Assembly (NCBI RefSeq): GCF_022419185.1 | Contig: NZ_JAJOZK010000003.1 | Span: 62,001 to 126,000, forward strand | Direction: 5' to 3' | DNA: 64,000 nt | Origin: Thermomonas flagellata | Lineage (GTDB): Bacteria; Pseudomonadota; Gammaproteobacteria; Xanthomonadales; Xanthomonadaceae | Part shown: positions 19,221 to 54,601 of the stretch, piece by piece | Layout: each line of letters starts with the position of its first letter | Position numbering within the stretch: position 1 is the stretch's first letter | Made by a program: the position numbers and the translations under genes | Notes under the pieces: generated by a model | Databases searched by the model: none | The model's input: the letters and a program-made list of their open reading frames with translations, nothing else | What the model was told of the DNA's origin: nothing

Positions 19221-19305
<85 letters not shown>

Positions 19306-50880: not shown

Positions 50881-52572
50881 TCAGGCCGCCACGTGCACGT
50901 CGCGCACCGCGCGCCCGGACGGATCCGCGGCGGCGGCGAACGCCGCGTCCCAGGCGATCGCCGCCGGCGAGGAGCAGGCGATCGACTTGCCGCCGGGCAC
51001 GCTGCGCGCGCAGGCCTCGCCCGGGAACTGCTGTTCGAACAAGCTGCGGTACCAGTAGGCCTCCTTGGTCTGCGGCGGGTTGATCGGGAAGCGCTCCTCC
51101 GCGGCGGCCAGTTCGGCGTCGCTGACCCGCTGCTCGGCATGCGCCTTGAGCCCGTCGATCCAGCCGTAGCCGACGCCGTCGCTGAACTGCTCCTTCTGCC
51201 GCCACAGGATTTCCTCCGGCAGCGCGCCGGCGAAGGCCTCGCGCAGCACCGCCTTCTCGATCCGCCGGCGTCCGTCCGCGCCGCTGCCCGCCATCTTGTG
51301 GGCGGCGTCCATGCGCATCGCGGTGTCGATGAACTCCACGTCCAGAAAGGGCACCCGCGCCTCCACGCCCCAGGCCATCATCGCCTTGTTCGCGCGCAGG
51401 CAGTCGTACTGGTGCAGGGCATCCAGCTTGCGCACCAGCTCCTCGTGGAAGGCGCGCGCGTCCGGCGCCTTGTGGAAGTAGAGGTAGCCGCCGAACAGCT
51501 CGTCGCTGCCCTCGCCGGAGAGCACCATCTTGACCCCCATCGCCTTGATCCGGCGCGCGAGCAGGAACATCGGGGTGGACGCGCGGATGGTGGTGACGTC
51601 GTAGGTCTCGACGTGGCGGATCACCTCCGGGATCGCGTCCAGCCCCTCGGCGAAGGTGTAGGTGAAGCCGTGGTGGACGGTGCCGAGCGCGTCCGCCGCG
51701 CGCTGGGCGGCGGCCAGGTCGGGCGAGCCCGGCAGCCCGATCGCGAAGCTGTGCAGGCGCGGCCACCAGGCCTCGCCGCGGTCGTCGTCCTCGATCCGGC
51801 GGCGCGCGAAGCGCGCGGCGCAGGCGGCCACCAGCGAGGAGTCCAGCCCGCCCGAGAGCAGCACCCCGTAGGGCACGTCGCTCATCAGCTGGCGGTGCAC
51901 CGCGCGCTCCAGCGCCTGGCGCAGCTCCGCGCGGTCGGGGGCGACTCCCTGCACCGCGTCGTAGTCGCGCCACGCGCGCCGGTACCAGCGCTGCGGCGCC
52001 TCGCCGGCGGCGCTGTCATACACATGCCCCGGCGGGAACAGCGCCGCGTCCGCGCACACGTCGGCGATCGCCTTCAACTCGGAGGCGACCCACAGCCGCC
52101 CGGCGTCGTCATGGCCCCAGTACAGCGGGCAGATGCCCATGTGGTCGCGCGCGATCAGCAGGCGCTGCGCCGCGGCGTCCCACAGCAGGAAGGCGAAGAT
52201 GCCGTTGAGCCGCGCCAGCCACTGCGCCGGCGCCTCGCCGTCGCGGTACAGGGCGTTGATCACCTCGCAGTCGGAGCCGGTCTGGAACGCATACGGATGC
52301 GCCAGCCGGCGCTCGAGGTCGCGATGGTTGTAGATCTCGCCGTTCACCGCCAGCACCAGCGCGCCGTCGGCGGACACGATCGGCTGCGCGCCGCCGGCCG
52401 GGTCCACGATCGCCAGCCGCTCGTGCACCAGCAGCGCCGCCGACTCCGCGTGCACCCCGCTCCAGTCGGGGCCGCGGTGGCGCTGGCGCGCGGAATGGGC
52501 CAGCGCCTGCGCGCGCAGCGGGCGCAGGTCGGCGCCGGGGCGCAGGTCGAACAGTCCGAGAATCGAGCACAT
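50881..52572 (-). CDS. asnB: Asparagine synthetase B, glutamine-hydrolysing
   Basis: A 563-residue enzyme making Asn from Asp, Gln and ATP. Cys2 is the glutaminase nucleophile (MCSILGLFD); RHRGPDWSG and NGEIYNHRDLE belong to the glutaminase domain. The synthetase domain has the P-loop SGGLDSSLVA and later GEGSDELFGGY. Upstream 180 bases hold an Asn-rich leader frame and a hairpin, suggesting control by attenuation. Follows the methionine gamma-lyase gene in the same direction. Confidence 0.97.
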   Translation of the reverse strand: MCSILGLFDLRPGADLRPLRAQALAHSARQRHRGPDWSGVHAESAALLVHERLAIVDPAGGAQPIVSADGALVLAVNGEIYNHRDLERRLAHPYAFQTGSDCEVINALYRDGEAPAQWLARLNGIFAFLLWDAAAQRLLIARDHMGICPLYWGHDDAGRLWVASELKAIADVCADAALFPPGHVYDSAAGEAPQRWYRRAWRDYDAVQGVAPDRAELRQALERAVHRQLMSDVPYGVLLSGGLDSSLVAACAARFARRRIEDDDRGEAWWPRLHSFAIGLPGSPDLAAAQRAADALGTVHHGFTYTFAEGLDAIPEVIRHVETYDVTTIRASTPMFLLARRIKAMGVKMVLSGEGSDELFGGYLYFHKAPDARAFHEELVRKLDALHQYDCLRANKAMMAWGVEARVPFLDVEFIDTAMRMDAAHKMAGSGADGRRRIEKAVLREAFAGALPEEILWRQKEQFSDGVGYGWIDGLKAHAEQRVSDAELAAAEERFPINPPQTKEAYWYRSLFEQQFPGEACARSVPGGKSIACSSPAAIAWDAAFAAAADPSGRAVRDVHVAA

Positions 52573-52632
52573 GGGCGGCAGTCCTGTCGGGGTGGGAGGT
52601 GGAAGGCGTAAACCGGGGGGGGCGAAAACGCG

Positions 52633-52660
52633 CGAGCCCGCACGGGGGGGTGCGGGCTCG
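52633..52660 (-). terminator. Hairpin in the asnB leader, probable attenuator
   Basis: A perfect 10-bp stem (CGAGCCCGCA with TGCGGGCTCG) around an 8-base loop; on the minus strand TTTT follows four bases after it. It lies between the Asn-rich leader frame and asnB, 61 bp before the asnB start. GCGGGC near the end of the leader frame (52698-52703) can pair with GCCCGC of the stem's first arm (52652-52657), offering an antiterminator. Confidence 0.72.
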
Positions 52661-52687
52661 TCGGGGGATCAGCGTGGGGAATGCGCG

Positions 52688-52750
52688 CTAATCGCCGGCC
52701 CGCGGGAGGCAGGCGTTATTGCGATTGGCATTCGCGCGGAGGCGGGTCAC
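52688..52750 (-). CDS. asnB leader peptide, Asn-rich
   Basis: A 20-codon frame with a GTG start at 52750, AGGA eight bases upstream and TAG stop. It reads MTRLRA, then N-A-N-R-N-N, then ACLPRAGD: four Asn in six codons, three of them AAT, a codon rare in this GC-rich region. A hairpin follows 27 bp after its stop and asnB starts about 115 bp downstream. This is the layout of a ribosome-mediated attenuator: with scarce Asn-tRNA the ribosome would stall on the Asn run and favour the antiterminator. Reading is from sequence alone; no leader of this type was verified. Confidence 0.75.
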
Positions 52751-52808
52751 GGCGCGATCCTGCCAGCCGCGCGCGGCCGCTGGCAAGCGTCGGTTGCGCG
52801 CGCAAGCA

Positions 52809-53993
52809 TCAGCCGGCCGCGGCCTGCAGCGCGCGCGCCACGTCCTCCAGCAGGTCGGGCGCGTCCTCCAGCCCGGCCGACAGCCGCACCAAGCCCTCGC
52901 CAATGCCGGCGGCGGCGCGCTCCTCCGGGGTGTAGGTGGAATGGGTCATGCTCGCCGGGTGCTGCGCCAGCGACTCGGCATCGCCGAGGCTGACCGCGCA
53001 CGCCACCAGCTGCAGCGCGTCGATGAAGCGCCGCCCGGCCGCGACCCCGCCGTGCAGTTCGAACGCCAGCATCCCGCCGGGCTGGCGCATCTGGCGCGCG
53101 GCCAGGGCATGGAACGGATCGTCCGCCAGCCCCGGGTAGTACACCCGCGCCACCGCCGGGTGCCCGTGCAGCAGCCCGGCCAGCGCGCGCGCGTTGGCAC
53201 AGTGGCGGTCCATGCGCAGGGCCAGGGTCTTCAGCCCGCGCAGCAGCAGGCTGGCATCCGCCGGCGAGAGCACCGCCCCGGTCATGTCCTTGAGCCCCTG
53301 CAGGCGCACCTGCGCGGCCAGCTCCGCATCGCGCGCCACCATCACCCCGGCGGTGGCGTCGCCGTGCCCGGACAGGTACTTGGTGGCCGAATGCAGCACC
53401 ACGTCGGCGCCCAGCGCCAGCGGCTGCTGCAGGTAGGGCGTGGCGTAGGTGTTGTCGACCGCGACCAGCGCGCCCGCGGCGTGCGCCGCGGCGGCCACCG
53501 CGGCGATGTCGATCAGGCGCATGTTCGGGTTGGCCGGCGATTCCAGGTACACCAGCCGCGGCCGTTCGCGCAGGCCGTCGGCCAGCGCCGCCGGGTCGGT
53601 CATGTCGACCTGGCGCACGCGCACTCCGAACTGGCCGATCCCGTGGTGCAGGAAGGCGAAGGTGCAGCCGTACAGGGTGCGGTCGGCCAGGATGAGATCG
53701 CCCGGGCGCAGCAGCGTCCACAGGGTGCTGGTGATCGCGCCCATGCCGGAGCCGAACGCGACCGCGGCGGCGCCGCCCTCCAGCGCCGCCATCCGCGCCT
53801 CGAACAGGGCCAGGGTCGGGTTGCCGATGCGGGTATAGACATAGCCCGGCCCCTCGCCGGCGAACGCGCGCGCCGCCGCCTCCGCGCCGGGAAAGGCGAA
53901 GGTCGCGCTGTGGTAGGTCGGCGGCACCAGCGCCCCGTGGTGCGCCTGCGGGTCGTAGCCGTGGTGGATGGCGAGCGTGGAGAAGCCGGACAT
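52809..53993 (-). CDS. mdeA: Methionine gamma-lyase
   Basis: A 394-residue PLP enzyme splitting L-Met into methanethiol, 2-oxobutyrate and ammonia. Strong family marks: [21 protein letters not shown] with the active-site Cys that distinguishes Met gamma-lyase, [11 protein letters not shown], the PLP-lysine in [11 protein letters not shown], and [16 protein letters not shown]. These favour gamma-lyase over cystathionine gamma-synthase, which usually has a different residue at the Cys. Divergent from an Lrp-type gene, as with mdeA/mdeR in pseudomonads. asnB follows in the same direction. Confidence 0.9.
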
Positions 53994-54060: not shown

Positions 54061-54088
54061 TTGCCCTGCGATGGGGGTTCGCAGGCAG
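54061..54088. promoter_or_regulatory. Inverted repeat between mdeA and the Lrp-type gene
   Basis: TTGCCCTGCGA and TCGCAGGCA form an imperfect inverted repeat around GTGGGGG-like bases in the 134-bp divergent region. Lrp-family proteins bind such sites, so it is a candidate operator for both genes. It lies upstream of the chosen regulator start at 54128. Confidence 0.5.
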
Positions 54089-54127
54089 GTTTTTGCCTTG
54101 AACCGGCGGATCGGGGATGATCTTTCG

Positions 54128-54601
54128 ATGGACGCCCCGCTCGACCGCACCGACCGCCGCCTCTTGGCCGCCTTGCAGGACGATGCCCGCCTGACCGTGG
54201 CGGAGCTGGCTGAGCGGGTCGCGCTGTCGCCCTCGCCGTGCTGGCGGCGGGTGCGCCGGTTGGAGCAGGCCGGGGTGATCAGCGGCTACCACGCGCGGCT
54301 GGACGCCGGCCGCCTGGGCCTGGGCATCACCGCCTTCGTCAGCGTGGTGATGGGCAGCCACACCCGCGAGGTCGCGCGTGCGTTCGAGGCCGCGGTGCAG
54401 GACATCCCGGAGGTGATCGCCTGCCACAACGTGTCCGGCGAGTACGACTTCCTGCTCGAGGTGGTGGCGCCGGACCTGGCCGCCTACGGCGAATTCGCGC
54501 GCAGCGTGCTGCAGGCGCTGCCGGGGGTGCGCGCGCTGCACTCGAGCTTCGCCCTGAAGCCGATCAAGACCGCGCGCCGGCTGCCGATCCCCGGCGCCTA
54601 A
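54128..54601 (+). CDS. Lrp/AsnC family regulator, MdeR-like
   Basis: A 157-residue transcription factor. The N-terminal AsnC-type helix-turn-helix is [47 protein letters not shown]; the RAM ligand domain follows (about 70-150; [34 protein letters not shown]). Start at 54128 because the family motif begins within five residues. By analogy with pseudomonad mdeR it should activate mdeA in response to Met or its products; AsnC-like action on asnB is also conceivable. Confidence 0.9.

Follow-up and report, generated by a model that had tools for sequence, protein, structure and literature searches.

An asparagine-codon leader and terminator conserved upstream of asnB in Thermomonas flagellata and its relatives: a candidate attenuator with an apparently leaderless start

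The asparagine synthase gene asnB lies on the minus strand of the window, as we call the whole 64,000-nucleotide stretch of Thermomonas flagellata DNA analyzed here. A 236-bp gap separates it from an upstream gene of the Cys/Met metabolism PLP family (52809-53993, minus strand), whose best NCBIfam match is methionine gamma-lyase, at 663.7 bits against a cut-off of 666. Divergent from this gamma-lyase-like gene is a gene for an Lrp/AsnC-type regulator (54071-54601), and the plus strand of the window also carries a tRNA gene at 19221-19302 (Rfam RF00005). Within the gap are a short open reading frame rich in asparagine codons, a hairpin with a run of T residues, and promoter-like boxes just before the frame (Table 1). 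The stretch from 52740 to 52573 (168 nt) folds better than all 200 of 200 shuffled versions, with a z score of -3.73.

Table 1. Features of the asnB leader region in the window, including putative regulatory elements
Feature	Coordinates	Strand	Remarks
-35 box TTGCCA, putative leader promoter	52781..52786	minus	18-nt spacer
-10 box CAGGAT (putative), 6 nt before leader start codon	52757..52762	minus	contains AGGA
Leader ORF, GTG 52750 to TAG 52688	52688..52750	minus	20 codons; start codon is the putative transcription start; homologous leaders in relatives
Control codons AAT GCC AAT CGC AAT AAC (putative)	52715..52732	minus	4 Asn in 6
Segment 1, GCCTGC	52709..52714	minus	can pair with segment 2 (protector hairpin, -9.0 kcal/mol)
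Segment 2, GCGGGC, last leader codons	52698..52703	minus	predicted to pair with segment 3 (antiterminator)
Segment 3, CGAGCCCGCAC	52650..52660	minus	terminator 5' arm, common to antiterminator
Segment 4, GTGCGGGCTCG	52633..52643	minus	terminator 3' arm
TTTT tract	52625..52628	minus	4-nt gap after hairpin; weaker than in many relatives
asnB, glutamine-hydrolysing asparagine synthase B	50881..52572	minus	NF006949, 831 bits against cut-off 499; putatively controlled gene

What sets the leader frame apart is its density of asparagine codons. A preliminary reading made from the sequence only had drawn attention to a 20-codon frame with Asn at four of six consecutive positions; we confirmed this frame and found that, across all six frames of the 64-kb window, no other stretch has at least four Asn in six codons. 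The same reading had called AAT rare in this DNA, and the neighboring genes bear that out: pooled, asnB, the gamma-lyase-like gene and the Lrp-like gene use AAC 13 times and AAT not once. Three of the leader's four Asn codons are AAT. In a set of 60 loci, AAT makes up 159 of 353 Asn codons in the leaders compared with 93 of 516 in the accompanying asnB genes (Fisher p = 1e-17), an excess that fits selection for sensitive control codons when related sequences are counted as independent. A scan of frames of 10 to 45 codons elsewhere in the source genome found none with at least four Asn in 12 codons before asnS or before a second asnB-like gene; near the two aspartokinase loci it turned up neither a Thr/Ile-rich nor a Met/Lys-rich frame. 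That second asparagine-synthase-like gene (G000:C3:134589-136319, locus L248; TIGR01536, 462.5 bits) adjoins a glycosyltransferase frame.

We gathered 233 asnB upstream regions, comprising the 30 best matches in the family of the source organism (window included), 80 loci from a genome collection, a further 100 family upstreams taken in order of asnB score, and 23 loci from 22 family genomes hand-picked for low asnB score; these sets may overlap, and one strain may occur twice. A leader was counted where a frame closed by a stop codon held at least three Asn in eight codons. By this measure an Asn-rich leader precedes asnB in 30 of 30 closest family matches, the window among them, and in 99 of the 100 family upstreams picked by asnB score. 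Of the 42 nearest named loci (L039 to L080), 39 have one, and the remaining three carry the labels Holophagales, Deltaproteobacteria and Rhodococcus. The sole miss among the 100, L119, is a true leader whose spaced Asn codons fall below the cut-off, and it scores 74.8 bits with the covariance model described below. Named carriers include Xanthomonas, Stenotrophomonas, Pseudoxanthomonas, Lysobacter, Luteimonas, Thermomonas, Arenimonas, Dyella, Rhodanobacter, Frateuria and Fulvimonas. The leader is identical in a same-genus genome (G051, locus L179) and in Thermomonas haemolytica DSM 13605 (L068).

At least three Asn in eight codons were present in 191 of the 233 upstreams, which reduced to 176 unique sequences and, after exclusions, to 162 leaders. 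Thirteen loci that bear labels of other orders (Shewanella, Colwellia, Thalassotalea and others) were dropped before the counts and taken as chance because their frames are AT-rich and unlike the leaders, and L038 was dropped as a stretch without a start codon. The 162 leaders are dense in Asn codons: 145 hold at least four per eight codons, compared with 0 of 162 shuffled sequences, and fewer than four are found in the other 17 and in 11 of 106 representatives. These representatives have less than 40% of their 8-mers in common; 105 extend far enough upstream for a promoter profile, and 104 have a usable terminator. In its conserved cluster of codons for the product amino acid (in the window, four Asn in six), the short leader ORF resembles those of trp- and his-type attenuators.

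A covariance model was built from 42 of 103 stretches, selected for diversity and length. It matches 238 of 296 family genomes at E<=1e-10, including 222 of 268 good-quality ones, and an asnB-like match at E<=1e-50 is found in 269 of the 296. Among 55 loci that had been scored as having no leader (42) or dropped (13), 54 gave no match to the model, L119 being the only one that did. The leader was not found in 14 family genomes (L226 to L239) with a separate type of asnB, which a quick tree groups as one clade, set off by a long branch with full support; loss of the leader or replacement of the gene may account for this group. A class-wide search of 369 genomes, run with stricter filters under which weak matches may be lost, reached E<1e-10 only in the four genomes of the same family, and the leader was not found in the other orders sampled. 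The best of the weak matches outside the family had an E value of 7.8e-9. Eight such loci, translated and read by eye, have no Asn-rich leader, and two weak matches in one genome (L290 and L291, G010) resembled ordinary terminators. The alignment of relatives proposed in the sequence-only reading therefore gave a positive result across the family for both Asn codons and terminator, together with covariation within the terminator and between the leader and the terminator arm. Homologous leaders without Asn codons or hairpin, which that reading had listed as a result that would refute it, amounted to cases in which no leader at all was found: the separate asnB clade of 14 family genomes, and loci with labels of other orders.

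The frame had initially been credited with its own Shine-Dalgarno sequence, AGGA, an assignment that we do not retain, as the string lies inside CAGGAT, where a -10 box explains it better. When the 105 representatives with sufficient upstream sequence are aligned at the leader start, T occupies the peak column of the -35 region in 95, and the -10 region has A at -11 in 73 and T at -7 in 74. Position -1 is C in 99, and position +1 is A in 101. The choice of start in this profile is circular because a promoter score was used, and frames with a single possible start were therefore examined: the pattern TTG-N17/18-nAnnnT-N6/7 directly precedes the start in 19 of 21 unique-start frames and 5 of 1,525 other starts in the same DNA. 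Of the 106 chosen starts, 85 fit the strict pattern; the circularity is avoided only in the 21 frames with a single start. Judged as a sequence pattern, the promoter is placed for transcription to begin at the leader start codon, and the apparent Shine-Dalgarno sequence is probably the -10 box of such a promoter, which would make the leader leaderless. The literature searched yielded no start-site map for the order to which the window belongs.

It is unlikely that the same attenuator instead initiates at the AGGA Shine-Dalgarno sequence on a transcript that starts further upstream. The window and 32 of 106 representatives do have a Shine-Dalgarno-like string, but 27 of those 32 strings fall in CAGGAT and 3 in TAGGAT, leaving 2 elsewhere. 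The remaining representatives have no such string, many of them carrying TACGGT, TAGCGT or TCTAGT in its position, and the -35 and -10 elements keep a fixed spacing to the start, with the C at -1 that 99 of 105 share.

Behind the leader frame, the hairpin at 52660-52633 has 11 perfect base pairs and a six-C loop (-22.7 kcal/mol) and is followed by CGCG, TTTT and then asnB. The earlier description of a perfect 10-bp hairpin with TTTT was right about the perfect stem; the stem is 11 bp long, and the T run is short and offset. A simple terminator scan did not flag the hairpin of the window, and many relatives have a longer T tract directly behind the stem. A uniform search for hairpins of -13 kcal/mol or lower with TTT behind them succeeded in 154 of 162 relatives and 106 of 486 shuffled sequences. 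With the limit at -10 kcal/mol the counts are 157 of 162 and 174 of 486, and the bare 157 of 162 is less telling than it appears because the shuffles reach so many. In 42 diverse sequences, 95.1% of cells in the terminator stem are paired, and 7 of its 11 pairs show compensatory changes. A predicted intrinsic terminator stands between leader and structural gene, as in trp- and his-type attenuators, with a weak T run in the window.

The sequence-only reading had also noted that GCGGGC at the end of the leader could pair with the first arm of the hairpin, and GCGGGC (52703-52698) is indeed complementary to GCCCGC (52657-52652) in the 5' arm. Segments 2 and 3 would accordingly form an alternative antiterminator that uses the terminator 5' arm, a further trp/his-type feature. 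In the aligned relatives 91.9% of 2:3 cells are paired, compared with 25.6-48.9% when the alignment is slid, and the covariation score is 0.138, compared with 0.086 for shuffled alignments (0 of 500 as high) and 0.029-0.070 for slid ones. Both sides change in only 2 of 6 pairs, which 169 of 500 shuffles equal, and the pair types show no excess over shuffles. The 2:3 duplex is below the shuffle mean in energy in 99 of 104 representatives (mean z, -2.19) and no better than the mean in 5; it ranks among the best 5 of 100 shuffles in 60 of the 104 and does not in 44.

The sharpest evidence for the predicted 2:3 pairing comes from the match between one leader codon and the terminator arm. In an alignment of 38 leaders of the PRAGD/PQAGD type, which left out two representatives (L153 and L031), 26 have G-C as the central 2:3 pair and 12 have A-U. 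Behind the stop, all 46 leaders with the codon CGG (Arg) carry CCCGC and lack CCTGC, and all 15 with CAG (Gln) carry CCTGC, 5 of the 15 also holding CCCGC within 80 nt. The leader codon thus covaries with the terminator 5' arm, as an antiterminator requires. Two apparent exceptions (one CAG with CCCGC, one CAG with another arm) proved on inspection of the sequences and a recount to be miscalled arms. A quick asnB tree with 93 rows, of which 8 carry CAG, requires 4 changes for the CAG state, and well-supported branches force at least 2 of them. The predicted protector pairing of segment 1 with segment 2 was examined in the window and in the 38 aligned leaders of the PRAGD/PQAGD type, where it is kept but shows little covariation.

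Outside the PRAGD/PQAGD types, the motif GCGGG(C/T) is encoded by other residues, in RPMRVCD, RWRARA and GWAGV. In 97 of 106 representatives a GCGGG-like motif lies behind the last Asn codon. Counted from the start of this codon, it begins after 14 nt in 44, and in 65 it begins 13 nt upstream of the stop codon. With this spacing, a ribosome stalled on Asn codons would leave segment 2 free, and a ribosome at the stop codon would cover it.

The frame might also be read as a gene for a functional small peptide, with the hairpin as an ordinary terminator or stabilizer. Its conservation, and the few types into which its C-terminal codons fall (PRAGD, RPMRVCD, RWRARA and GWAGV), would suit such a peptide, but leader length varies from 20 to more than 40 codons among representatives and the N-terminal parts vary too. 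What is kept is the Asn codons and an RNA motif, GCGGG(C/T), written through different residues, and the covariation of segments 2 and 3 points to a constraint on RNA. We consider this reading very improbable, although an additional role for the peptide in trans is conceivable on the precedent of peTrpL, as described in part of PMC7298713.

Control of asnB by something other than leader translation, through a T-box or a protein such as the product of the Lrp/AsnC-family gene at 54071-54601, has equally little in its favor. Escherichia coli asnA is controlled by AsnC, and an Lrp/AsnC-type gene does lie close to the leader in the window, but that Lrp-like gene was found in 0 of 40 named leader-bearing loci (tblastn at 1e-10, flanks up to 2.5 kb). 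As for a T-box, no Rfam match to one reached the gathering threshold in the window, and the sub-threshold list for 52560-52820 does not contain one either. For the leader element, nothing reached threshold in the window or in four relatives. The Thr_leader family (RF00506) was rejected at 16.7 bits against a gathering threshold of 55, its match covering the hairpin only.

That the hairpin is merely the intrinsic terminator of the gamma-lyase-like gene and the Asn frame a product of chance is extremely unlikely: the hairpin does lie between two same-strand genes, the upstream one ending at 52809 in the window, but leader and hairpin persist in 40 named loci without the gamma-lyase-like gene of the window (0 of 40 by tblastn at 1e-10, with the window as positive control and a few loci having less than 1 kb upstream), the density of four Asn in eight codons was never reached by shuffled sequences (145 of 162 vs 0 of 162), and the leader codon covaries with the hairpin arm. 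We rejected it on the conservation without the upstream gene and on the covariation; from the absence of that gene at the 40 loci it follows that the element belongs to asnB.

The leader region is therefore best read, with high though not complete confidence, as a ribosome-mediated transcription attenuator that would control asnB by the charging of tRNA-Asn. From its features we infer a start site, translation, termination and a response to asparagine that would operate as follows. RNA polymerase would start from the TTGCCA-N18-CAGGAT promoter, at or next to the leader start codon, and the leader would be translated as a leaderless mRNA. When charged tRNA-Asn is scarce, the ribosome would stall on the Asn codons and cover segment 1, so that segment 2 could pair with segment 3 and asnB would be transcribed. 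When asparagine is plentiful, the ribosome would reach the stop codon and cover segment 2, the 3:4 hairpin would form, and transcription would end before asnB.

Folding calculations bear on how this switch could work. The window RNA up to segment 3 has a folding energy of -25.9 kcal/mol with a ribosome on a middle Asn codon and -3.5 kcal/mol with a ribosome at the stop. In equilibrium folding with ribosome masking, the terminator of the window wins in all three ribosome states (0.99 each). A clean equilibrium switch appears in only 18 of 104 representatives, mostly Xanthomonas- and Stenotrophomonas-like leaders. Attenuator switching is usually kinetic, and because the terminator wins every equilibrium state, we argue that the switch in the window would be kinetic as well; this is the weakest computed step of the model.

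Leader-peptide attenuators for amino acids are familiar in proteobacteria from trp, his, leu, ilv, thr and phe. The asnB leader shares with them a short ORF with codons for the product amino acid, segments 1 to 4, and a terminator before the gene; it is unlike them in its control amino acid (Asn), in its target (asnB) and in its apparently leaderless leader. At the level of sequence, the predicted Asn attenuator is real and conserved and shows each trp/his-type feature examined, the picture being ambiguous for the protector hairpin, which can pair but covaries little.

Leaderless leader ORFs have been described in other groups. In Sinorhizobium meliloti, the 5' end of the trpL attenuator RNA (rnTrpL/peTrpL) is the ATG of the leader, according to part of PMC7298713. 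The likeness lies in the leaderless leader ORF, with a 5' end stated in that text as known for trpL and a putative one for the asnB leader; the S. meliloti system differs in sensing Trp, in belonging to an alphaproteobacterium and in having a 14-aa leader. Leaderless leader ORFs upstream of amino-acid genes are also reported in part of PMC8079986 for leuL, trpL, ilvL, thrL and metL of Streptomyces lividans, a member of the Actinobacteria, and the 8 leaders listed in that part include no Asn leader. Asparagine goes unmentioned in the available portion of PMC2965389. Literature searches combining asparagine or asnB with leader peptide and attenuation found no Asn attenuator, a result that does not prove its absence from print. 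The asnB leader would thus be a known kind of attenuation, and as far as searched, what is new is most likely its Asn specificity together with its apparent leaderless start.

The covariance model of the Asn leader also found a second leader in the source genome. This match, at 43.6 bits, is a Val/Leu/Ile leader (control codons ALVLVLIT), MLHRHTPAPTALTATAAALVLVLITSPTGAGRSGV, with a terminator, at G000:C7:381448-381561 (L287), before a ketol-acid reductoisomerase frame; the family of the downstream frame (Pfam KARI) was assigned from the frame of a relative, in L288. Three relatives also have a Val/Leu/Ile leader as their second model match. Its resemblance to the Asn leader extends to promoter-like boxes just before the ATG, a GTGCGGG motif and a terminator before the gene, and it differs in its control codons and in the gene downstream. 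Read by eye, the source genome and the three relatives share a weak -10-like box 6-8 nt before the ATG and a TTGACA that precedes this box by 17-18 nt, and the Val/Leu/Ile leader is apparently leaderless too. A his leader, looked for as a positive control, was not seen upstream of hisG in the source genome. A Trp_repressor-family frame precedes hisG there (L247:1142-1465, G000:C1; Pfam PF01371, 85.2 bits), and a regulator, HisR, is reported in Xanthomonadales in part of PMC9413887.

The like promoter layout of the Val/Leu/Ile leader suggests that leaderless leaders may be a general design here. A more speculative extension, which we consider possible but rather doubtful, is that the attenuator is gated by its 5' end, acting as amino-acid sensor and insulator in one, and that leaderless leaders are general in the Lysobacterales. 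Only RNA from the asnB promoter itself would then be rescued by stalling at the Asn codons, because a leader without a Shine-Dalgarno sequence would be translatable only if the transcript begins at the start codon. Read-through RNA from the upstream gene would pass the leader untranslated and would always stop at the terminator. Such a design would embrace the Asn leaders and, by their like layout, the Val/Leu/Ile leaders. In 15 of 104 representatives, mostly Xanthomonas-like, folding of the untranslated RNA does not favor the terminator, and the insulator part may therefore hold only for others, such as the window.

A CAGGAT -10 box of a leaderless leader can pass for a Shine-Dalgarno sequence, and leader peptides in this order may therefore be mis-annotated or missed. 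As far as the literature has been searched, the candidate attenuator would extend leader-peptide attenuation to asparagine as a sensed amino acid, and it offers a testable form of asnB control across relatives of Xanthomonas, Stenotrophomonas, Lysobacter, Dyella and Rhodanobacter.
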